Positions 16,954 to 51,407 of a stretch of 51,407 bases of DNA are shown here, piece by piece. Position 1 is the first letter of the stretch, and every line of letters begins with the position of its first letter. Below the pieces are notes generated by a model. It saw only the letters and a list, made by a program, of their open reading frames with translations. It searched no databases and was not told where the DNA came from. A program made the translations under genes and the position numbers. The stretch comes from Candidatus Aphodousia faecipullorum (lineage in GTDB: Bacteria; Pseudomonadota; Gammaproteobacteria; Burkholderiales; Burkholderiaceae_F), in NCBI GenBank assembly GCA_018714205.1, contig DVNR01000003.1, positions 1 through 51,407 of the forward strand, written 5' to 3'.

Positions 16954-18219
16954 TTAGAAGACGATGTAGGTAGCGATCAAACCGATTACAGCAACCGGAG
17001 CAGAACGCTTAACAATGTCCATCGGGTTCACACCTGCCAAACCAGCGACCAAAATCACACCGCCGGCCAACGGGGAAGCGGTACGGCCCAAACCGCCGGT
17101 GAAGGCAGCAAGCATACCCAAGTTGTGAATTTCCATACCGAAGGATTCAGCGTGCGGAGTCACGGCTTCGTTAAAGGCGAAAGCCGCAGCGTCACCGGAA
17201 CCGGTCATCACACCCATGATGAACGGACCAAATGCGCCACCGATCTTGGCCCATTCGTTGGAGTTTTGTAAGAATTCAACCAAGAGGTCAATAACACCAG
17301 CGGCGCGCAAGCCAGCAGCGAACACACCGGCGGCAATGATGATACCGAGAATCTTAGCGTAGCCACTGCCCATGCCTTCAAAGAACTTCGTCGTGCAATC
17401 TGCCGGGCTCGTACGAGTAACGGCTAAAGCATAGATAGCACCAACCAACATAGCGGTTGCCACAGAGATCTTGAAATTGAAGTAAAGCGTGCAAACAAGC
17501 AACAAACCGATCGGAACCAACGGAGCGATAGCGTAAGCGAGGTTGATCTTATCCGGCAAGTTAGATGCCATTTTTTGTTCGGCTGGCGTGCCGTTCTTGT
17601 CGGGACGCGTGTAATCTTTGTATACAAGGCAGATCACTGTCGTAGCAACAATCAACGTTGCGACAACAACAAGAACTTGCATAGAAACGGAACCGATCAA
17701 GTCCATCACATCCATGTTGGCCAACTTAGCAACGAAGACGTCATGAGAAACGCCCGGGTTAAAGAAGGCGGGGAACACGGAGGCAACCAATGCTGCGGCT
17801 GCAATAGCGGGCTTGAAGCCGGCGCGAACCAAAATCGGAATCAACGTCGGACCGACGGCAGCACAAAGACCTGCCGTAGACGGAATAGCCACAGAGCAGA
17901 AGCCGGCAACACACATACTGGCGGGCAACAAGAAAATGCCCATACTGCGCAACGGCTTGAGCAACAAGGCGACCAATTGGACGTCGCACTTCGTAAGCGA
18001 AATCACACCGGCAAAACCCATTGCCGAGCAGATGGCGATGATCAAGTTTGCGTTGGTCATCGACTTATCAAACTGTTGGAAGGCCATCATCGGTTCCAAA
18101 GAAGCGAATGCCATGACCAAACCGGCAGTGATAAGCACCATACGTGTTTCATAACGTTTAATAAGCGCCCAGACCGTCACGCAGACGACCACGAGGCTTA
18201 CGATGAGCGTATAAGACAT
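16954..18219 (-). CDS. DcuC-family anaerobic C4-dicarboxylate-type transporter, paralog 1 (divergent)
   Basis: 421 aa, multi-TM; KRYETRMVLITAGLVMAFASLEPM, ICSAMGFAGVISLTKCDVQLV, GSGDAAAFAFNEAVTPHAESFGM shared with three other paralogs. Confidence 0.8.
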   Translation of the reverse strand: MSYTLIVSLVVVCVTVWALIKRYETRMVLITAGLVMAFASLEPMMAFQQFDKSMTNANLIIAICSAMGFAGVISLTKCDVQLVALLLKPLRSMGIFLLPASMCVAGFCSVAIPSTAGLCAAVGPTLIPILVRAGFKPAIAAAALVASVFPAFFNPGVSHDVFVAKLANMDVMDLIGSVSMQVLVVVATLIVATTVICLVYKDYTRPDKNGTPAEQKMASNLPDKINLAYAIAPLVPIGLLLVCTLYFNFKISVATAMLVGAIYALAVTRTSPADCTTKFFEGMGSGYAKILGIIIAAGVFAAGLRAAGVIDLLVEFLQNSNEWAKIGGAFGPFIMGVMTGSGDAAAFAFNEAVTPHAESFGMEIHNLGMLAAFTGGLGRTASPLAGGVILVAGLAGVNPMDIVKRSAPVAVIGLIATYIVF

Positions 18220-19390: not shown

Positions 19391-20680
19391 TTATGCCTTG
19401 TTCGTCTTCTCCAAGAAGCGAGTGAACATTTCAAAAGCTTCGGGCATACTTTCACTGTCTTGAATTTCAAAGTCGCCTTTGTGATGGCCGTGTTCGTTGC
19501 AACCGAAAAGGAAGAACCCGGCCTTACCACCGTGAGAAAGCACTTTACGGACAAGCCATGTGCAGTCTTCTGATCCCGAAATCTTGACGTCTGGGTAAAC
19601 CTTCGTGATGAAAGGAATTTCGTGAGCAATGGTTTCCAGTGTTTCAATAACTTCAGGCGTTGTTTGAAGCGTCGTTGCGGCCCCAACTTTCTCAAATTGG
19701 TATTGAACGTCATAGGCTTCAGCATTACCTTTAACGATGCGTTCAACATAATCGGTCATGTATTGGTTAACTTCTTCAGTTTGACCGCGCACTTCAATTT
19801 GCATCTTCGCATGAACAGGAACAACATTGCGACCTTCGCCAGCTACTAAGCGGCCAATGGAAATTCGAGTATCGCCTTGGCTGTTACGCGGGATACCGGC
19901 AAGCATCGTGGCCGTTGAGCAAGCCGCTAACAATGCGCTGCGACCTTTTTCTGGATTGGCGCCAGCGTGAGCGGCTTTGCCGGTGAAGGTGATGTCAATT
20001 TTGCTGGTAGCCAAGAATCCTTGACGGCAGAGTCCGATTTCATGCAACCGAATGCCGCTACCAATATGGCAACAAATAATATAGTTCACGTCATCAAGCA
20101 AGCCGCTTTCAGACATTGGAAGACCGCCGCGAGTACCTTCTTCAGCCGGTTGGAATAAGAGCTTGATCGTTCCGCAAAGTTCGTCTTTATGGTCAACGAT
20201 CCAGTGAGCGACGCCTAAGCCAACTGACGTGTGAGCGTCATGCCCGCAAGCGTGCATGAGACCGGCGCGTTCCGAGCAGTAGCCTCCGGCATTGGATTCG
20301 TGTTTCGGATCATTGGTTTCTTGAACGAGCACGCAGTCCATGTCGTGGCGGAACATGGTCACAGGGCCCGGTCGACCGGTATTCCAAACGGCGACACAGC
20401 CTGTGTAGCCCTCGGTTTCAGCCAAGAACTCTTCAGATACACCATGTTCACGGGCGCGTTGCATCGCTTCTTCAACGAGTTTGGGGTCGCGACCCATGAC
20501 GAATTTCGGATTAATGGCTTTTGTGCCCATCACGACATCAAACCCGAGTTCGCGAAGACGCTTGACGACGATATTCATCGTTTCAAATTCCGTCCAGCCT
20601 TCTTCAGGGCGCTTGTGAATGGTGCGACGGAACTGCACCATTTCCTGAGTGTATTGTTCATTCATTTTTAATTCCTCCAT
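19391..20680 (-). CDS. M20 amidohydrolase, AbgA (p-aminobenzoyl-glutamate hydrolase subunit A)-like, paralog 1
   Basis: WTEFET, INPKFVMGRDPK, GRPGPVTMF, MHACGHDAHTSVG, IKLLFQPAEEGTRG, SGSEDCTWL; resembles E. coli AbgA throughout. Confidence 0.85.
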   Translation of the reverse strand: MEELKMNEQYTQEMVQFRRTIHKRPEEGWTEFETMNIVVKRLRELGFDVVMGTKAINPKFVMGRDPKLVEEAMQRAREHGVSEEFLAETEGYTGCVAVWNTGRPGPVTMFRHDMDCVLVQETNDPKHESNAGGYCSERAGLMHACGHDAHTSVGLGVAHWIVDHKDELCGTIKLLFQPAEEGTRGGLPMSESGLLDDVNYIICCHIGSGIRLHEIGLCRQGFLATSKIDITFTGKAAHAGANPEKGRSALLAACSTATMLAGIPRNSQGDTRISIGRLVAGEGRNVVPVHAKMQIEVRGQTEEVNQYMTDYVERIVKGNAEAYDVQYQFEKVGAATTLQTTPEVIETLETIAHEIPFITKVYPDVKISGSEDCTWLVRKVLSHGGKAGFFLFGCNEHGHHKGDFEIQDSESMPEAFEMFTRFLEKTNKA

Positions 20681-22031: not shown

Positions 22032-23318
22032 TTATTTATGTAAGCCGTTGGTTGCTTCAATGAGCTTGACTTGCACGCTGAAACCCACCGGCATACTCTT
22101 CACATCATCCGGATCAAAGTCCGAACGGTGTTGACCGTTGTGATCGGCTCCATAGTAGAAATGAGCCGCTTTGCCTCCGTGTTGTTGCACGCGGGCCATC
22201 AAAATGGTGGCGTCTTCGCTACCGCCTTTTTCACTGTAGTAGTCAACGTGATCGGCTCCGACGACTTCGCCGGCGCACTTTTCAATGAGTTTGGCGAGTT
22301 CCGGAGTTGGGTTCATTGTGAAGGCTTCACCAACTTTGGTGATCTTGTACTCAACGTCAAACGCTTCCGCATTGGCTTTCACTGCGCGTTCAACCTGAGA
22401 GAAAATGTATTGGCACAGTTCGTTCGTGGCGCCACGGACTTCCATTTGCATGGTGGCGTGAACAGGAACGACATTGCGCATTTCGCCTGCCATGAGTTTG
22501 CCGCAGCTTACGGTTGTCAAGCCGGCTCCATGACGCGGCAAGCTGCCGATCATGACGGCAGTGTGGCAGGCGGCCATCAATGCGTTACGACCGTCTTGAG
22601 GATTGGCCACCGAGTGGGCGGGTTTGCCGGTGAAGGAAACGTCAAATTTAATGGTGGCGTTGTAACCCGGCGAAGTGACAGTGACGTAACCTAAACGCGG
22701 TGTGCAACCGATGTGGCTTGCAAATAAATTATCGACATCGTCAACGATGCCGCTTTGAGCCATGGCCATGGCGCCACGCGTGCCTTCTTCGGCCGGTTGG
22801 AATAACAGTTTGATCGTGCCGCACAGTTCATCTTTGTGATCAACGATCCAGTGGGCGATAGCCAATCCAACACCGGTGTGGCAGTCATGCCCGCAAGCAT
22901 GCATTTGACCAGGATATTCGCTAGCGAATCCCTCCTTGTTCGGGAGGTGATTGGGATCCGTTGTTTCTGGAACATACAGTGCATCAATGTCAAAGCGCAA
23001 AGCAGTCACAGGGCCGGGACGACCGGTTTTCCAAATGCCTACAGCGCCGGTGTAACCTTGCATCGCATCGATATCTTCTTGCTTAACGCCCGCTTCAAGA
23101 GCGCGCTTCACACCCAGTTTAACTTCGTCGGGATAGCGACCCATTACATAATCAGGATTGATCACAGCGGTGCCTTCGAGCACTTCAAATCCCAATTCTT
23201 TAAGGCGATTAACAATAATGCTTGTTGTCCTGAATTCGGTCCAGCCGGTTTCAGGTTTGGCGTGCAGACTACGACGGAATTTCACCATCTCGTCTGTGTA
23301 TTGATTGTTGATATCCAT
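22032..23318 (-). CDS. M20 amidohydrolase, AbgA-like, paralog 2
   Basis: WTEFRTTSIIVNRL, MHACGHDCHTGVG, LLFQPAEEGTRGAMAM, GGSEDATILMARVQQHGGKA. Confidence 0.87.
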   Translation of the reverse strand: MDINNQYTDEMVKFRRSLHAKPETGWTEFRTTSIIVNRLKELGFEVLEGTAVINPDYVMGRYPDEVKLGVKRALEAGVKQEDIDAMQGYTGAVGIWKTGRPGPVTALRFDIDALYVPETTDPNHLPNKEGFASEYPGQMHACGHDCHTGVGLAIAHWIVDHKDELCGTIKLLFQPAEEGTRGAMAMAQSGIVDDVDNLFASHIGCTPRLGYVTVTSPGYNATIKFDVSFTGKPAHSVANPQDGRNALMAACHTAVMIGSLPRHGAGLTTVSCGKLMAGEMRNVVPVHATMQMEVRGATNELCQYIFSQVERAVKANAEAFDVEYKITKVGEAFTMNPTPELAKLIEKCAGEVVGADHVDYYSEKGGSEDATILMARVQQHGGKAAHFYYGADHNGQHRSDFDPDDVKSMPVGFSVQVKLIEATNGLHK

Positions 23319-23663: not shown

Positions 23664-24860
23664 ATGCAAGATAACAAGCGTTGGTTTTACCTGGTGCTGT
23701 TCTGGGTGGTGAATTTTTGCCTGGGCTCGTTTTATGCTTGGAGCGTTTACTCCACATGGCTTGCACAACACTACTCGGTGATCGCCGGAGCGACAGTGAC
23801 GGTGGCATCGTTAACCTATGTTTTTAGCATTGGCGCGGCCATGAATCCGATAGCTATGGTCACCGCGGGATTTCTCACTGATCGGTTGGGACCTAGACCG
23901 GTCCTTTTCGGTGGTGGATTGATCGTGACGCTTGGGTACTATCTTATGAGCATCAGCACGGATTCCAGCTTATTGCTAATCGGATACGGAATTTGTTTTG
24001 GTATGGGGTCTGGTGCTTGTGTGATTGCAACGGTGACATCTGCTGTCAAGTTATTCCCGACGATGCGAGGTTTCGCCGGTGGTTCGGTAGGTGCCATGTA
24101 CGGCTTGGGGTCCGTTTGCTTGCCGCCGACAGCCAATGCCTTGGCGCAAAACTATGGAATTACCACTACCTTGCTATTTTTTGCGGTTGCTTGTTTTGTC
24201 ATCATTATCGCCAGTGCAAGTCTGATTAAGCTCCCGGCTTCTCGCTCCGTGGCACCTAAAGCTGGCAATGAAGATCTCAATTGGTTGCAAATGGTGAAGA
24301 CCTCGCGGTTTTGGGCAATGTTTGTGCTCTTTTTAGGAGCGACGCTTTCGCCGTTGATGCTTTTTTCTCAAACAGTCACGGTTGCCCAGGTTCAGATCGG
24401 TTTAGGCATGTCTGCGGCTGTACTTTCAGTTTCCGTTTTGGCTCTAGCCAATATGGCTGCGCGCTTTTTAGCGGGGACTCTCTCGGATAAGCTAGGGCGC
24501 GCTCTAACCTTGGCATTAGCGATTGCTATGGCCGTTTTAGGCTTGTCGCTCTTGTCAATGGCTGGTCAAGGCGATGCAGCTCTTTTCTATTTGGGTTTGG
24601 TTTGTATCGGCGCGAGTTTCGGTTCAAGTGTTGGGATTTTCCCAGGATATGTAGCTGAACAGTTTGGACCGGCAAACGCTAGTATGAATTATGGTGTAAT
24701 GGCGCTCGCATTCTCCGTTTCTGGCATTATCGGCCCGAATATTATTCGTATGAGTGTTGAGGGCGGCCAATACCAAATCGCCTATTTTATCGCGATAGGT
24801 ATTAGCGCAGTTGGCCTTTTGGCGGCCTGGTACTGTAAATCATTTGAGAAGAAACATTAA
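23664..24860 (+). CDS. MFS transporter, OFA (oxalate/formate antiporter-like) family, copy 1
   Basis: CLGSFYAWSVYSTWLA; AMNPIAMVTAGFLTDRLGPRPVLFGGG; GMGSGACVIATVTSAVKLFPTMRGFAGG. Confidence 0.8.
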   Translation: MQDNKRWFYLVLFWVVNFCLGSFYAWSVYSTWLAQHYSVIAGATVTVASLTYVFSIGAAMNPIAMVTAGFLTDRLGPRPVLFGGGLIVTLGYYLMSISTDSSLLLIGYGICFGMGSGACVIATVTSAVKLFPTMRGFAGGSVGAMYGLGSVCLPPTANALAQNYGITTTLLFFAVACFVIIIASASLIKLPASRSVAPKAGNEDLNWLQMVKTSRFWAMFVLFLGATLSPLMLFSQTVTVAQVQIGLGMSAAVLSVSVLALANMAARFLAGTLSDKLGRALTLALAIAMAVLGLSLLSMAGQGDAALFYLGLVCIGASFGSSVGIFPGYVAEQFGPANASMNYGVMALAFSVSGIIGPNIIRMSVEGGQYQIAYFIAIGISAVGLLAAWYCKSFEKKH

Positions 24861-26246: not shown

Positions 26247-27524
26247 TTAGAACACAAAGAGCAGGGTTAACACACCGACAATCATGCCGGGTGCTGTACG
26301 TTTCACGAGATCCAAAGGATTGGAACGGCACAAACCGGCGATGACAATCACCACACCGGCAATCGGGCTCATCGTGCGACCAAGCGCACCGGAGACATAG
26401 GCCAAGTTGCCCAGGTTCGTGATGCTCATTCCGAAACTTTCTGCGTGCGGCGTGACGGCTTCGTTAAAGGCCATCGTTGCAGCGTCACCCGAACCAACCA
26501 AAATGGCCATTAAATACGGTCCTAACACACCACCCCATTGAGCATATTCGTTGGAGGACTTCAGTCCTTCAATCATGACATCAACAAGACCGGCGGCACG
26601 AAGTCCCATGGCAAAGACACTGGCGGAAACGATGATACTGACAATATCTGCAAAGCCTTTACCACAACCGGTAAAGAAGGTGGTGGTTGCTTTGGCTGGA
26701 CTTGTGCGTGTCACAATGATGGTGTAGATCGCGCCGATTACCATGGCTTGAGCGACGCCCATCTTTAACGCCGGCACACATGTATTGCCGAGAATCAAGA
26801 GCACGAGTGGAACAAGCGGAGCCAACGCGTAAAGCAAATTGACGTGATCAATGGTTTCACCGAAATTGCCGTCACCTTCGATCTTGCCGTCGCCTTTATG
26901 GTCACGCAGGGCAAATTCCGTCACAGTGATCATGACAACGCTGATGGCCCAAAGCACCATATAAGTGGTCATATTCTGAAGAATAAATTCCATGCCAGAA
27001 ATGCCAACATAAGAGCCCACCATGTTTTGGTGCGGCGAACCAGGGTTCAAGAATGAGCCGATCGTGCCGGCTAACACGGCAGCGCCGGCGCCGGCAGGCT
27101 TGATGCCAGCGCGGATCATAATCGGGATAAGCGTCGCGCCAACGGCAGCGGCGCAGCCGGCAGCGCTTGGGATCGCCGTGTTGACGATCAATGTCACGAT
27201 TGTGCAGGCAGGAATTAAGAAAACGCCCAAATGCTTAAGAGGGGCTGCGAGCAATGTGACCAAATGCAAGTCCGCTTTCGTGTAGCTCATCAAGAAAGCG
27301 AAGCCCATGGCGGCGGTGATGGCTTGCACCAAAGTGGCGCTAGTCATCATCTTAGCGAATTGGTCAAAGGCCTGCATTGGTGCCAATGAAATCAGGCACA
27401 GGAAAATACCAGCTGACAGAAGTGTTGTACGCACCTCAAACTTTTTCAAAAGGGCAGCGATAACGGCAAAAATAGTCGCTACGGCAATCCATGCGGTTAT
27501 TGACATAATGGGTACTCCTATCAA
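26247..27524 (-). CDS. DcuC-family transporter, paralog 3
   Basis: 425 aa; same conserved segments as paralogs 1, 2 and 4. Confidence 0.84.
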   Translation of the reverse strand: MIGVPIMSITAWIAVATIFAVIAALLKKFEVRTTLLSAGIFLCLISLAPMQAFDQFAKMMTSATLVQAITAAMGFAFLMSYTKADLHLVTLLAAPLKHLGVFLIPACTIVTLIVNTAIPSAAGCAAAVGATLIPIMIRAGIKPAGAGAAVLAGTIGSFLNPGSPHQNMVGSYVGISGMEFILQNMTTYMVLWAISVVMITVTEFALRDHKGDGKIEGDGNFGETIDHVNLLYALAPLVPLVLLILGNTCVPALKMGVAQAMVIGAIYTIIVTRTSPAKATTTFFTGCGKGFADIVSIIVSASVFAMGLRAAGLVDVMIEGLKSSNEYAQWGGVLGPYLMAILVGSGDAATMAFNEAVTPHAESFGMSITNLGNLAYVSGALGRTMSPIAGVVIVIAGLCRSNPLDLVKRTAPGMIVGVLTLLFVF

Positions 27525-29094: not shown

Positions 29095-30387
29095 ATGAAG
29101 ACAACTTTTATCGCAACCGGTGATAGCTTCATTACACGTCACATCGGAGAGTACGGCTACGATGGTTACGAGGACGTGTGTGACCTCATCGATCGTCACG
29201 AAGTGCGTTTTGCTAATTTGGAGATGACGTTTCATAACCAAGAGGGTTACCCTGCTGCGGCAAGCGGTGGCACTTGGGCAATGACGGAACCGGAAATGCT
29301 TGATGATATGCTGGATTTCGGGTTTAACCTCTTTAACACCGCTAACAATCACACCGGTGACTATGGTCAAGGTGGCATTGCGGCGACAATCCGTCATCTA
29401 AAAGAGCGCAATATGACCTTTGCTGGCACGGGTATGACGCTTCAAGAAGCCTCTCGCCCTTGCTATTTGGAAACCCGTCAAGCGCGTGTTGCCTTAATTG
29501 GTGTGACGTCCTCCTTTGATCCCGCGGCTCGAGCTGGCGCTCAGAGTGGTGATGTTGTCGGTCGACCTGGATTAAATCCGTTGCGGTATAAAACGGTGTA
29601 TCACGTCAATGGTGAACATTTCGACATGGTCAAAGAGCTTGCCCGAGTGACATTAGTCAATTGGCCGGTTGAGCAAAAAATTGAGTGTGGGTATTTGCCG
29701 CCCTTTGAGGAAGGGTCCTTGCCATTTGGCAAACTGAACTTTGTCCGTGATGACGAGGAATTTATTGAAACGGTGCCTCATGCCGGTGATATGAACCGAA
29801 TTTTGGAAGAAATTAAAGAGGCCAAACGTCAGGCGGATGTTGTGCTCGTGAGTTTCCACGTCCATGAAATGACCGGCAAGGACACGACGCTTCCGGCGCA
29901 ATTTCATAAAACGTTCTGTCATGCTTGTATTGAGGCCGGCGCTTCTGTTGTGATCGGTCATGGACCTCATGAGCTACGGGGCATTGAGTGCTATCAAGGT
30001 GGTGTTATTTTCTACAGCCTTGGCAACTTTATTTTTGAAACGGAAACAACAGCGGTTCAACCTGCGGACGCGTTCCAAGAGCAGCGTTTGCCTATGGATA
30101 TGAAAGTCGGTGCCTACATGGACAACCGTAGTCGAAATGGCACAATCGGTTTCCCTGTGATGCCCAATATTTGGCGTGCCGTGATGGCCGGTTGGACCAT
30201 CGAAGACGGTAAAGTGACAGAAGTCACTTTATATCCGATTGATCTTGGCATGAAAATGAGTCGTGGTCAACGAGGACTTCCGCGATTGTCCGGCGATGAG
30301 GACACGTTGCGATATTTGCAAAGTCTCTCGGAACCCTTTGGCACAAAGATTGAAATCAAGGATGGGGTTGGAATGATTCATCTATAA
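29095..30387 (+). CDS. CapA-family (PGA_cap) protein, no evident signal peptide
   Basis: TFIATGDSFITRHIG, NTANNHTGDYGQGGI, VLVSFHVHE, GHGPHELRGIECYQGGVIFYSLGNFIFE. Confidence 0.82.
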   Translation: MKTTFIATGDSFITRHIGEYGYDGYEDVCDLIDRHEVRFANLEMTFHNQEGYPAAASGGTWAMTEPEMLDDMLDFGFNLFNTANNHTGDYGQGGIAATIRHLKERNMTFAGTGMTLQEASRPCYLETRQARVALIGVTSSFDPAARAGAQSGDVVGRPGLNPLRYKTVYHVNGEHFDMVKELARVTLVNWPVEQKIECGYLPPFEEGSLPFGKLNFVRDDEEFIETVPHAGDMNRILEEIKEAKRQADVVLVSFHVHEMTGKDTTLPAQFHKTFCHACIEAGASVVIGHGPHELRGIECYQGGVIFYSLGNFIFETETTAVQPADAFQEQRLPMDMKVGAYMDNRSRNGTIGFPVMPNIWRAVMAGWTIEDGKVTEVTLYPIDLGMKMSRGQRGLPRLSGDEDTLRYLQSLSEPFGTKIEIKDGVGMIHL

Positions 30388-39904: not shown

Positions 39905-41170
39905 ATGTCTTTAACATTTTGGGCAGCGATCTTTATTGTTTTATTAGCATTGGTTGCGCTATTGAAGCGGTATGAAACTCGCTTAGTTCTGTGTTTGTCG
40001 GGTCTGGCAATGTGTATTGTTGCCATGGATCCAATGGCGGCTTACAACCAGTTTGCCAAGTCAATGACAACTGGTAACCTGATTCAATCAATTTGCTCTG
40101 CCATGGGTTTTGCATTTTTGGTGGGTTACACTAAATGCGATATTCATTTGGTTCAATTACTAACTCGTCCTGTTAAATCACTGGGTCTTTTCCTCATTCC
40201 ATGCAGTGCGCTTTTGACAACAATTGTCAATGCGGCAATCCCGTCGGCTGCTGGCTGTGCTGCCGCCGTCGGAGCAACGCTCATTCCTTTAATGATTCGT
40301 TCTGGTATCAGTCCCGCAGGTGCAGCCGCAGCTGTTTTAATCGGGACTTATGGTTCGAACTTTAACCCTGGTGGTGCACACCCAGTGATGATTTCTGGTA
40401 TGGCAGGCATTGATCCGATGCAATATACTATTGATTATTCGATAACTTATGCAACGGTCTCTTTGGTTGGGATCATCATGATCACAGTGGTGGAATTTAT
40501 TCTCAAAGACTACCGGAAGACGAATCCTAACGAAGCTGTGAAACTTGATATCAAGTCTGTTGCTGTAGAAAAGGTCAATGTTTTGTTTGCCATCGCTCCG
40601 TTGGTGCCTCTTGTGATTTTGCTCCTAGGAAATACCTACGTTCCCGCTATCCGCATGGGAGTGGCTCAAGCTATGTTGATTGGTGTCACTTACACAATGC
40701 TTGTGACGCGGGTCAATCCTCAGAAAGCGTTTTCAGAATTTTTCACCGGAGCTGGCAAAGGGTACGGGAATGTGCTCGGCATCATTATTGCGGCAGGTGT
40801 TTTTGCGTGTGGTCTTCGCGAAACTGGAGTAGTAGGCGCTTTGATTGAAGCTCTCAAGCATGCTAATGAATATGCTCGTGTTGGCGGTGCCTCTGGGACT
40901 TTTTTAATGGCAGTTCTTACCGGTTCCGCTGACGCTGCAATTTTTGCCTTTAATGAGGCTGTAACTCCGCACGCAGCAGAATTCGGCATGACAATCACCG
41001 ATTTGGGCAACGTTGTATCCACTGCAGGACAATTGGGGCGCACGATGAGCCCGATTGCAGGTGTTGTCATTTTGCTGGCAGGGATGGCCCAGGTTTCTCC
41101 GATGGATCTGGTCAAACGAACCGCTGTGCCAATGATCACGGCCTGGTTGGTGTTGATTCTCTTTTTCTAG
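39905..41170 (+). CDS. DcuC-family transporter, paralog 4
   Basis: 421 aa; MSLTFWAAIFIVLLALVALLKRYETRLVLCLSG, very close to paralog 2. Confidence 0.85.
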   Translation: MSLTFWAAIFIVLLALVALLKRYETRLVLCLSGLAMCIVAMDPMAAYNQFAKSMTTGNLIQSICSAMGFAFLVGYTKCDIHLVQLLTRPVKSLGLFLIPCSALLTTIVNAAIPSAAGCAAAVGATLIPLMIRSGISPAGAAAAVLIGTYGSNFNPGGAHPVMISGMAGIDPMQYTIDYSITYATVSLVGIIMITVVEFILKDYRKTNPNEAVKLDIKSVAVEKVNVLFAIAPLVPLVILLLGNTYVPAIRMGVAQAMLIGVTYTMLVTRVNPQKAFSEFFTGAGKGYGNVLGIIIAAGVFACGLRETGVVGALIEALKHANEYARVGGASGTFLMAVLTGSADAAIFAFNEAVTPHAAEFGMTITDLGNVVSTAGQLGRTMSPIAGVVILLAGMAQVSPMDLVKRTAVPMITAWLVLILFF

Positions 41171-41222: not shown

Positions 41223-42497
41223 ATGCAAAATTCATATATTGAAGAAATGATACAAGACCGTCGATGTCTACATCGTCGCCCAGAATTGGGATGGACAGAA
41301 TTTGAAACAACAGCACTCATTGTTAAGCGACTTCGTAGGCTCGGTTTTCAGGTTCTTTTGGGTACGCATTATCTGAACCCTAAATTCATTATGGGGCGAG
41401 ATGAGTCTGCGGTAGAACAGGCGATGCAGAGGGCTTTAGAAAACGGTGTAGACGAGGCGTTTCTTAATGAAACGGAACGATATACGGGATGTGTCGGTAT
41501 TTACAAAACTGGTCGTCCAGGTCCTGTGACGGCATTCCGGTTTGATATTGATGCGCTTCCCATTGAGGAAACTGATGCTGCGGATCATGAAGCTAATCTT
41601 GCTGGGTATCGCTCCGAGCGCAAAGGTTTGATGCATGCTTGCGGCCATGACGGCCATACGGCAGTTGGACTGGCGGTGGCCCACTGGATAAGCGATCGGC
41701 GGGATAATCTTTGTGGCACCATTAAGCTCATTTTCCAGCCAGCCGAGGAAGGCACCCGAGGCGCTCTACCTATTGCAGAAAGCGGCATTTTGGACGACGT
41801 TGATTTTATGATCGGCTCGCATATTGGGAATTGTTGCCGTTTGGGTGAAGTGGGCATTTGTTTGGGGGGATCCTTAGCAACAACAAAACTTGATGTGAAC
41901 TTTACGGGATTGGCAGCGCATGCCGGACTAGCGCCGGAAAAGGGTAGGAACGCTTTGTTTGCTGCCTGCAATGCAGCAACAACTTTGGCAGGGATTCCCC
42001 GTAATAGCCAAGGCAGTACAAGAATTTCCGTCGGGAAACTCGTCGCTGGTGAAAGTCGTAATGTCATCCCTGTTCATGCCTATATGCAGGTAGAGGTGCG
42101 TGGGGAGACAGAGGAGGTCAACGATTACATGACCGAAAACGTCAAACGCATCTCCACCAATATTGCCAAAGCTTATGACGTGAAATGTGATTGCCAAATA
42201 GTAGGGCGCGCTACCACTCTGTTGTCGACTCAAAAGGCATGTGCTGTGCTTGAGAAAGTCGCCAAAAATCTCGATGGAGTATCTAGCGTCAGGAATATTG
42301 AAAAGGTGGCCGGTTCAGAAGACTGTACTTGGTTGATTCGCAAAGTGGTTAAGCACGGAGGCGAAGGGGCTATGTTCTTGTTTGGATGCAATCACAATGG
42401 TCATCACCGTAGTGATTTTTCGATACAGGATAGAGAAAGTTTACCCATTGGATTTGGAATGTTTACCGGATTTTTAAGTGAGGTCAACATGAAATAA
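41223..42497 (+). CDS. M20 amidohydrolase, AbgA-like, paralog 3
   Basis: LGWTEFETTALIVKRLRRLGFQV, MHACGHDGHTAVGLAVAH, LIFQPAEEGTRGALPIAESG, AGSEDCTWLIRK. Confidence 0.87.
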   Translation: MQNSYIEEMIQDRRCLHRRPELGWTEFETTALIVKRLRRLGFQVLLGTHYLNPKFIMGRDESAVEQAMQRALENGVDEAFLNETERYTGCVGIYKTGRPGPVTAFRFDIDALPIEETDAADHEANLAGYRSERKGLMHACGHDGHTAVGLAVAHWISDRRDNLCGTIKLIFQPAEEGTRGALPIAESGILDDVDFMIGSHIGNCCRLGEVGICLGGSLATTKLDVNFTGLAAHAGLAPEKGRNALFAACNAATTLAGIPRNSQGSTRISVGKLVAGESRNVIPVHAYMQVEVRGETEEVNDYMTENVKRISTNIAKAYDVKCDCQIVGRATTLLSTQKACAVLEKVAKNLDGVSSVRNIEKVAGSEDCTWLIRKVVKHGGEGAMFLFGCNHNGHHRSDFSIQDRESLPIGFGMFTGFLSEVNMK

Positions 42498-48692: not shown

Positions 48693-49148
48693 TTACTCGC
48701 AAGCGCCGGGTTTCTCCGGTTCATACTGCACGAGCAATTCGCCTTTTTCATTCCAGAGCATCAAGCCCTGTTCATTTTGCGTGACATAACGGGTTTCTTG
48801 AAGGACTTTCAAGAGTTTTGCTTCCGTTTGCATCGCTTCCGGAGCGCACATCCGGCGAGTTACCGCCGCGTCTTTAAACGTGAGTTTTTTCCCGTCAAGT
48901 TGATATTCGGTGTTGAAAAGATTGCAGCCCAAGTTACCGGAAACACGTTTCGCATCCAAAAAGTCCATGACAGGCGGCAGATTCTCGCAGTCATTAGCCT
49001 TTGGCGCATCGGCAACAACAAGTTGCCAAGATGTTCCTTCAAGTTTTGATACGGCTTTACCTGCTAATTTGTCTTCAACACTGTTGCCAGAGCATGCGGT
49101 CAATGCCATTGCAGAAATTCCTAGTAATGTGATCAATAGTTTTTGCAT
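48693..49148 (-). CDS. META-domain (HslJ-like) lipoprotein
   Basis: Lipobox LTAC; LEGTSWQLVVADAP...PPVMDFLDAKRVSGNLGCNLFNTEYQLDGKKLTF. Confidence 0.82.
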   Translation of the reverse strand: MQKLLITLLGISAMALTACSGNSVEDKLAGKAVSKLEGTSWQLVVADAPKANDCENLPPVMDFLDAKRVSGNLGCNLFNTEYQLDGKKLTFKDAAVTRRMCAPEAMQTEAKLLKVLQETRYVTQNEQGLMLWNEKGELLVQYEPEKPGACE

Positions 49149-49209: not shown

Positions 49210-49360
49210 AAAAAAAAGGCCGGGATTTCGTCCCGGCCCCAACTCTCTCTCTTCTCTTGTTCCGGAGGACCAGCTGTGCTCGTCTCTCACGCCTTTAACT
49301 TTAAACAGAGCGCGGTCGAAAAGACGTGAACAATTGCTTGAGGAAGCAACGAAATGTTTC
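49210..49360. ncRNA. candidate structured RNA element copy A, 151 nt; minus-strand reading ends in perfect intrinsic terminator
   Basis: GGCCGGGA TTTCG TCCCGGCC stem (49218-49238) with T8 on minus strand; blocks shared with 50876-51026. Confidence 0.5.
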
Positions 49361-49631
49361 TGGATGAGCCGAAAAAAAAGGTTTCTTGGAAAGAAAAAAT
49401 CGATAAAACAATCGATTATCTTTTATTCAAGATTTGATTGCCTCTAACATTTTGCAATAAATATCTTTCAATGAAGCAACTTATGGAGAGTTTGGAAGAT
49501 GTCGGGAGGTTTTGTTATTTCCAAAATGACGCTTTCGGCAGGTTGAAAGTTATGGGTACAATGAGAAGGTCCGCGCTTTGCTTTGGGCAATCCTTGTCCG
49601 TTTAATTCGTTTGCTAGGAAGGGAGTTTTCC

Positions 49632-50864
49632 ATGAAGCCACTAGTCAATGACAGCCGTCTTGATAAAAAACGCTGGATGGTTTTTTTATTGGCTTGTTTT
49701 ATTTTGGTTTGCGCCGGTGCCAATTACGCATGGAGCGTGTTTGCTCAACCGCTTGCCGAGCATTTAAATGGCGAGATTGGGGATATCGCGTTTGCTTTTA
49801 GCTTGGCAAGCTGCTGTTCACCCATTGCGATGCTGATTGCTGGTTGGGTGAGCGATCACTACGGTCCAAAGCCCATGATGATTTTAGGCGGCGTGATGAT
49901 GGGAGGGGCGTTTATCGGGTGTTCTTTTGCGACTAACGCCATCACGGTCATTGTGGTTTATGGCGCCGTGTTCGGGTTGGGCATGGGAGCCACTTTTTCC
50001 TCCACAACGGGTAATCTGCTGAAATTTTTCCCGGATCGCAGTGGTTTTGTGAGCGGCTTAGCCATGGCTGCGTATGGCGCAAGTTCCGTGATCATTCCTC
50101 CTGTGGCGGTTTTTCTCTTAAACGGTTGGGGCGTTCAGCACGCATTTTTCATGCTCGGCATAGCTTTCATTGTTATTGTGGTCACCGGTGGCGCGCTAAG
50201 TACTCGTTGTCCAGTGGGTTTCGCGCCCACGGGGTTTGTGCCGAAAAAAGCGGTTGACGGGCACATTCAGAGTTTTAGCACAACAGAAATGATGCGAACA
50301 AAGCGCTTTTGGTTCATGTGGGGGATGGGCGTGTGCGGAGCATTGGCGGGCATGATGGCGATTTCATATGCGGCGATGATTGCGCAATTTCAGATGCAGT
50401 ATCAGCCGGCGGCCTGCGCAATGGTGGTGTCCGTGGTTGCTGTCGGCAACATGAGTGGTCGTTTTATCGCTGGCGTGCTCTCTGATTATATCGGCCGTGT
50501 TCCAACACTATTTTTGGCTCAACTGTTAAATTTTCTCGGCATGTTGATTTTGTGGGATTGCGCGCCTGGTGATAATGGTTTGTTTTTGATGTCGATTGTC
50601 GCCTTGGGGCTTGCCTTCGGCGCCTACATGGGAGTCTATCCAAGTTTGACCACGGAAGAGTTTGGACCGGCTCACAATAGCGCTAACTACGGGATGATGG
50701 TTGTAGGCTTTTCCTCAACGGCCATGATTGGTCCTTACATCATGAATTTATTCTACAGTCGCTATGGGGAATTCGATCAAGCTTATATGGTGGGCATCGC
50801 TGTCACACTCTTAGGCTTTGTTTTTGGCTTTTTCTTAAAACGCGCCCTCTCGGCAAAATCGTAG
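49632..50864 (+). CDS. MFS transporter, OFA family, copy 2 (ATG at 49632 preferred over track start 49578)
   Basis: CAGANYAWSVFAQPLAEHL; LIAGWVSDHYGPKPMMILGGVMMGG; SARGYPS-type later loops; preceded by GGGAG. Confidence 0.78.
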   Translation: MKPLVNDSRLDKKRWMVFLLACFILVCAGANYAWSVFAQPLAEHLNGEIGDIAFAFSLASCCSPIAMLIAGWVSDHYGPKPMMILGGVMMGGAFIGCSFATNAITVIVVYGAVFGLGMGATFSSTTGNLLKFFPDRSGFVSGLAMAAYGASSVIIPPVAVFLLNGWGVQHAFFMLGIAFIVIVVTGGALSTRCPVGFAPTGFVPKKAVDGHIQSFSTTEMMRTKRFWFMWGMGVCGALAGMMAISYAAMIAQFQMQYQPAACAMVVSVVAVGNMSGRFIAGVLSDYIGRVPTLFLAQLLNFLGMLILWDCAPGDNGLFLMSIVALGLAFGAYMGVYPSLTTEEFGPAHNSANYGMMVVGFSSTAMIGPYIMNLFYSRYGEFDQAYMVGIAVTLLGFVFGFFLKRALSAKS

Positions 50865-50875
50865 TTTCTGAGCAG

Positions 50876-51026
50876 AAAAAAAAGCCGGGACTGCTCGATC
50901 CCGGCTTTAAACTCTCTCTCTTCCCTTGTAGGAGGACTGCTGTGCCTTCTCTCTACGTGTTTAACTTTAATGATTTGCTTGCCCAAAAGCCGTATACAAA
51001 TGCGTAGGGAGGCAACGAAATGTTTC
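50876..51026. ncRNA. candidate structured RNA element copy B, 151 nt
   Basis: AGCCGGGA...TCCCGGCT stem (50883-50906), T8 on minus strand; ACTCTCTCTCTTC, GGAGGAC, CTGTGC, TTTAACTTTAA and GCAACGAAATGTTTC shared with copy A. Confidence 0.5.
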
Positions 51027-51219: not shown

Positions 51220-51407
51220 ATGGACGAGAGTAAAAGAAATCTTTTGTTAGCGTTGTTGGCGTTCGGAGCTCTCAGCATCTCTCCCGTTCGTGTTTGGGCA
51301 GGTGATGACGATGATCGTGATGATGACGATGATCGTGATGATGACGATGATCGTGATGATGACGATGATCGTGATGATGACGATGATCGTGATAATGACG
51401 ATGATCG
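51220..51407 (+). CDS. secreted Asp/Arg hexapeptide-repeat protein, truncated at window end
   Basis: ATG at 51220; MDESKRNLLLALLAFGALSISPVRVWAG then DDDDR (DDDDDR)x4 DNDDDR. Confidence 0.6.
   Translation, partial: MDESKRNLLLALLAFGALSISPVRVWAGDDDDRDDDDDRDDDDDRDDDDDRDDDDDRDNDDD
51304..51407 (+). repeat. 18-bp in-frame tandem repeat GATGATGACGATGATCGT
   Basis: About 5.8 units to the window edge. Confidence 0.9.

Follow-up and report, generated by a model that had tools for sequence, protein, structure and literature searches.

A putative small RNA gene conserved across the genus Aphodousia, with its own promoter and terminator and duplicated around a transporter gene

In Candidatus Aphodousia faecipullorum, two intergenic repeats on either side of a transporter gene are well supported by sequence comparison as copies of a genus-wide, previously uncatalogued small RNA (sRNA) gene that carries a conserved promoter and terminator of its own. 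Within the window, the 51,407-nucleotide stretch of contig DVNR01000003.1 analysed here, direct reading places copy 1 at 49210-49360 and copy 2 at 50876-51026, each spanning 151 nt from A8 to GCAACGAAATGTTTC; an earlier note on this DNA had given exactly these coordinates and this extent, and every block that it named is present. The repeat is real and far beyond chance. Used as a DNA query, copy 2 retrieves copy 1 as its sole match genome-wide (75% identity, E=1e-16), so that the further copies for which that note had suggested looking are not found in the 1.81 Mb draft genome (88.6% complete). The blocks that align between the copies comprise the promoter box, TAAAGTTA, the GUCCUCC region, the purine tract, and the terminator, and the regions flanking the two copies bear no similarity to each other. 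Each copy would constitute an independently transcribed minus-strand sRNA gene, with the following features and neighbours.

49346..49360, minus strand: promoter box GAAACATTTCGTTGC of copy 1, centred at about -62; exact in the genome only at both copies
51012..51026, minus strand: promoter box GAAACATTTCGTTGC of copy 2; exact in the genome only at both copies
49298..49303, minus strand: -10 element TAAAGT of copy 1, invariant in 10/10 genus copies
50964..50969, minus strand: -10 element TAAAGT of copy 2, invariant in 10/10 genus copies
49210..49291, minus strand: sRNA copy 1, putative transcript of ~82 nt, kept in 8/9 genus genomes
50876..50957, minus strand: sRNA copy 2 (type B), putative transcript of ~82 nt, held-out recovery at E=4e-9 (model R2)
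49264..49270, minus strand: anti-SD-like GUCCUCC of copy 1, invariant in 10/10, predicted in the 3' arm of hairpin 1
50931..50937, minus strand: GUCCUCC of copy 2, invariant in 10/10, predicted paired
49241..49260, minus strand: purine-rich segment ACAAGAGAAGAGAGAGAGUU of copy 1, core AGAGAGAG invariant, 5' part predicted unpaired; possible Hfq ARN site
50910..50929, minus strand: purine-rich segment of copy 2, 95% identical to that of copy 1
49210..49238, minus strand: intrinsic terminator of copy 1, read from the sequence as GGCCGGGA-CGAAA-TCCCGGCC-T8
50876..50906, minus strand: intrinsic terminator of copy 2, read from the sequence as AGCCGGGA-8 nt-TCCCGGCT-T8
48693..49148, minus strand: META-domain (HslJ-like) lipoprotein gene (Pfam PF03724, E=1e-24), constant downstream neighbour of copy 1
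49632..50864, plus strand: MFS gene of the lactate/oxalate-formate type (NCBIfam NF049980, 334.9 bits), between the copies

Searched at the DNA level, 101 related genomes yielded copies in three congeners, and a covariance model (R1) built from five sequences identified ten copies in eight of the nine genomes that make up our sample of the GTDB genus Aphodousia, including Parasutterella secunda, all at about E <= 1e-18. A second model, R2, extends from the -10 element through the terminator and was built without the window copies and both copies of G006, the closest relative of the window genome by PolA (78%); it recovered all four held-out copies (7e-22, 1e-20, 1e-10, and 4e-9). A scan of genome contigs names the carriers as Candidatus Aphodousia gallistercoris, Ca. 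Aphodousia faecigallinarum, Parasutterella secunda ET73 and An562, and further Burkholderiaceae/Sutterella MAGs. The sole genus genome without a covariance-model match (G005) has no META gene either, which means that the locus could be absent from the assembly or lost. Over 67 genomes of the family, both models return only chance-level matches outside the genus (e.g. L053), and the core DNA pattern, searched over 84,980 species, hits seven genus contigs and one Omnitrophota contig; this last, a single match in MAG L038 (3155-3214), is probably chance. Conservation of the stem and blocks in related genomes, for which the earlier note had proposed a covariance-model check, is thus borne out across the genus.

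On the minus strand, the promoter box GAAAYATTTnGTTGC is followed by a loosely kept CTTTT-rich stretch, TAAAGTTA, hairpin 1, AACAAGAGAAGAGAGAGUU, and the terminator. The box, a gap of ~42 nt, and TAAAGT are present in every genus copy, and over the genus together with nine aligned loci of a sister genus both elements are invariant or nearly so at a spacing of 41-43 nt. Elsewhere in the window's own genome, matches to the box with two mismatches are about as numerous as those to a reversed control. We infer a transcript start ~7 nt after TAAAGT; a regulator bound at the activator-type box, ~62 bp before that start, would switch the sRNA on, and initiation from the -10 element would yield an ~82-nt transcript composed of hairpin 1, a purine-rich single strand, and the intrinsic terminator. 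Since a divergent gene lies upstream of copy 1, the RNA is not simply a 3' UTR product.

The structural evidence is strongest for the terminator, whose stems and T8 tracts stand on the minus strand of both copies as previously described. Its pairing holds in 100% of the cells across the ten copies, with 5/8 pairs changed on both sides, and the co-changing pairs define the stem types GGCCGGG, GGCUAGGG, and GGCCAGGG; covariation over the whole structure is 0.242 versus 0.112 when shuffled (0/500), and the fold of sRNA copy 1 has z = -3.56. Hairpin 1, CGUGAGAGACAAGC-AGA-GCUGGUCCUCCGG, is predicted in nearly every copy; most of its pairs are invariant and none changes in a compensatory manner among the ten copies, so its support is that of folding energy. 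The 3' arm of this hairpin contains GUCCUCC, with a predicted unpaired probability of about 0-0.2 at most positions and close to zero in the majority of type A copies, and the CCTCC-rich segments that had been described as exposed are therefore present but predicted to be paired. The most accessible part of the RNA in the predicted folds is instead the 5' part of the purine tract that follows GUCCUCC. The copies share no conserved reading frame. A small protein initiated at a GTG (VRDKQSWSSGTREER...) could be read in several type A copies, but its frame is shifted by indels in G007 and in the type A copy of G006, and no GTG, ATG, or TTG start was found at that position in G001, the type B copy of G006, or copy 2, which makes such a gene very improbable. 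The element thus combines its own promoter and terminator with non-coding character and conservation beyond its flanks, which on sequence evidence are the general marks of a trans-acting intergenic sRNA.

The genomic address of the element is also constant. One copy lies directly upstream of the META gene on the same strand in 8/8 carrier genomes, and META adjoins polA in 7/8 loci, polA not being found in the stretch fetched from G007. The far-side neighbour normally resembles a DMT-type transporter, an assignment that is based on a match to NCBIfam TIGR00950 below the model cut-off in G006 and G002 and on position and appearance in the other genomes. This arrangement could also be that of a 5' leader, in which the terminator would act as an attenuator controlling read-through into META, and in G001 a gap of only ~20 nt between terminator and META start would hardly accommodate a promoter for META alone, which counts against a freestanding sRNA and makes a dual role possible there. 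A cis-acting leader should always have its regulated gene downstream on the same strand, however, and neither copy 2 nor the type B copy of G006 has a co-directional downstream gene, both running into the 3' end of the opposite-strand MFS gene. With no gene for the second copy to lead, no anti-terminator competing with the terminator stem evident in the folds, and META located ~1.4 kb from the sRNA in the sister-genus genome G052, we regard the leader reading as unlikely.

The MFS gene separates two copies only in the window genome and in G006, where the order is DMT transporter, sRNA-B, MFS gene (opposite strand), sRNA-A, and META; the DMT gene is seen in G006, the window ending before it. 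The window's type A copy scores 0.84-0.87 to most single copies of other species, and the two type B copies score 0.81 to each other versus 0.76 and 0.67 to their type A partners. Although only ~95 nt are compared, these values are suggestive of a single duplication event that preceded the divergence of the two species, the MFS gene lying between the resulting copies, as the simplest history: the sRNA gene would be ancestral at the DMT-transporter/META/polA locus and would have given rise to siblings A and B in the lineage of the window. On this history the MFS gene is a late neighbour and not a partner of the sRNA, and of the previously suggested link between element and transporter there remains the flanking arrangement in two genomes, secondary to a single copy without the MFS gene in 6/8. 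Two direct copies around an accessory gene might also suggest a mobile or recombination repeat (MITE/REP-like) that carries a terminator and spreads by transposition, a reading already disfavoured and to our minds hardly credible given that each genome has the element at one fixed locus, that no scattered copies were found, and that promoter and core are conserved across species. As a duplicated sRNA gene, the sibling pair in one lineage can be compared with its single-copy relatives.

When the stretches upstream of META were read in further genera of the family, sister genus g16 showed a promoter built in the same way at the corresponding position, with for example GAAACATTTCGTTGC in G102 and GACACATCTTGTTGC in others, followed after 41-43 nt by a near-invariant TAAAGT (in L085 the spacing was read directly from the sequence, the scripted finder having taken an earlier match). 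The RNA body that follows is different: its hairpin varies in sequence, and after it come a single-stranded UCUCCUUUGGUU that is invariant and a terminator, with UUCUCCUUUGG as an unpaired anti-SD seed. A third model, R3, built from nine of the ten g16 genomes searched, finds exactly one copy per genome in 10/10. In L085-L093 and L143, an additional box of the GTTTCAG type separates the first box of the sister-genus sRNA from its -10 element; a Cra/LacI-like identity for this additional box is too weak to claim. R3 matches in genus g10 (L144 and L145) look like plain terminators, with neither seed nor box, and sub-threshold Rfam matches of sister-genus loci to the L20 leader and RsaE were judged chance. 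We tentatively entertain, while considering it somewhat less probable than not, a locus of Sutterellaceae-type gut bacteria that keeps its promoter, regulator site, and genomic position from genus to genus, its RNA body and seed having been exchanged or rewritten (UUCUCCUUUGG versus GUCCUCC plus purine tract), and that was later duplicated around a transporter gene. If true, the control signal would have been conserved while the target set was re-coded; a promoter and locus outlasting the RNA sequence would be unusual, with a bearing on sRNA evolution and on the difficulty of tracing sRNAs between genera.

Among known RNAs, no Rfam family reaches its gathering cut-off anywhere in the window, RF02278 included, or at any of these loci at family cut-offs; the Rfam check suggested by the earlier note therefore came back empty, and the papers searched yielded no sRNA work on this group. 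RF02278, the Betaproteobacteria toxic sRNA family of double-hairpin RNAs that comprises ncS03/05/27/62 (the bdhR1 family) of Burkholderia and S17 of Bordetella, is among the best, sub-threshold matches for four Aphodousia copies, with 21.7 (copy 2), 21.1, 18.4, and 16.2 (copy 1) bits against a gathering score of 50. The Burkholderia members occur as three to five homologues per genome, with CU-rich unpaired segments predicted to cover ribosome-binding sites (RBSs), and overexpression of ncS27 leads to slower growth (PMC5688073); the related S17 of Bordetella pertussis is Hfq-dependent and represses via RBS-complementary sites (PMC11722255). Like these RNAs, the window RNA is short, has a hairpin and an intrinsic terminator as 3' hairpin in equal order, carries a CU-rich UCUCC/CCUCC segment, and exists as sibling copies. 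Unlike them, it lacks UGUCUCCUCCACC and a CU-rich hairpin loop, and in place of seeds exposed at the 5' end and in the loop of hairpin 1 it has a single GUCCUCC that is predicted to lie in a stem. The promoters also differ: many RF02278 loci have a TTGCAnTGCAC-like motif upstream, and a search for the promoter box upstream of RF02278 loci gave no convincing match. Because the score falls short and the CU-rich segment is not predicted to be exposed, we do not file the window RNA as a member.

The sister-genus RNA resembles this family: R3 returns 20/27 RF02278 loci at the RF02278 position with individually weak (E 0.009-2) but consistent matches, and the g16 sRNA and RF02278 have in common the stretch CUCCUUUGGU(U)GGAUU plus terminator. 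RF02278 is widespread in the order (138/200 genomes at E <= 0.01) and above cut-off in only 2/67 genomes of this family. A further parallel is offered by NmsRA and NmsRB of Neisseria meningitidis, likewise adjacent betaproteobacterial sibling sRNAs (~70% identical) with anti-SD segments, whose anti-SD action was shown by mutagenesis (PMC5362039). Their sequence and locus are their own, and they have three stem-loops and two exposed anti-SDs. In class and layout, the window RNA resembles the RF02278, S17, and NmsR RNAs.

By analogy with these RNAs and with the sister-genus seed UUCUCCUUUGG, we infer an anti-SD mode of action. Our best reading, which we hold to be probable, is a freestanding trans-acting sRNA that pairs GUCCUCC with RBSs, probably assisted by Hfq, and lowers translation as related betaproteobacterial sRNAs do; an hfq gene is present (103 bits). 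The proposal of a two-copy trans-acting anti-SD sRNA family thereby survives in its first half, the two-copy minus-strand sRNA being backed by genus-wide conservation, the promoter, compensatory changes in the terminator, and held-out recovery, and is weakened in its second by the predicted pairing of GUCCUCC and by a target scan without clear enrichment. GGAGGAC-N(2-10)-ATG sites number 10 versus 7 in a reversed control, and only two precede ordinary-looking host genes (an aldehyde dehydrogenase and nusB, judged by eye from translations); with no clear enrichment, no target is claimed. Alternatively, the sRNA could act in trans through its unpaired purine-rich stretch as the seed, with pyrimidine-rich RNAs or other sRNAs as partners and GUCCUCC in a purely structural role. 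The predicted accessibility of this stretch and the invariance of AGAGAGAG speak for such a seed, which we nevertheless find rather unlikely, as GUCCUCC is invariant though its pairing partner partly varies, and the sister-genus and RF02278 RNAs use CU-rich seeds. The locus is a testable sRNA gene in the cultured strains Parasutterella secunda ET73 and An562.

The window holds several other features. A second lactate/oxalate-formate-like MFS gene at 23664-24857 (+; NF049980, 270.7 bits, below the cut-off of 320) is presumably the first such gene implied where the earlier note spoke of a second. Three DcuC-type C4-dicarboxylate transporter genes (16957-18219, 26250-27524, and 39905-41167) have M20-type amidohydrolase genes nearby (19394-20680, 22035-23318, and 41223-42494), and 29095-30384 (+) encodes a product resembling the lasso-peptide epimerase MslH at a score well below cut-off (236.7 versus 700 bits). 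Finally, the contig end truncates an extremely acidic and probably secreted repeat protein, of which the start is present at 51220-51407 (+); a signal-like N-terminus is followed by DDDDRDDDD repeats, and the DNA has 18-nt tandem units.
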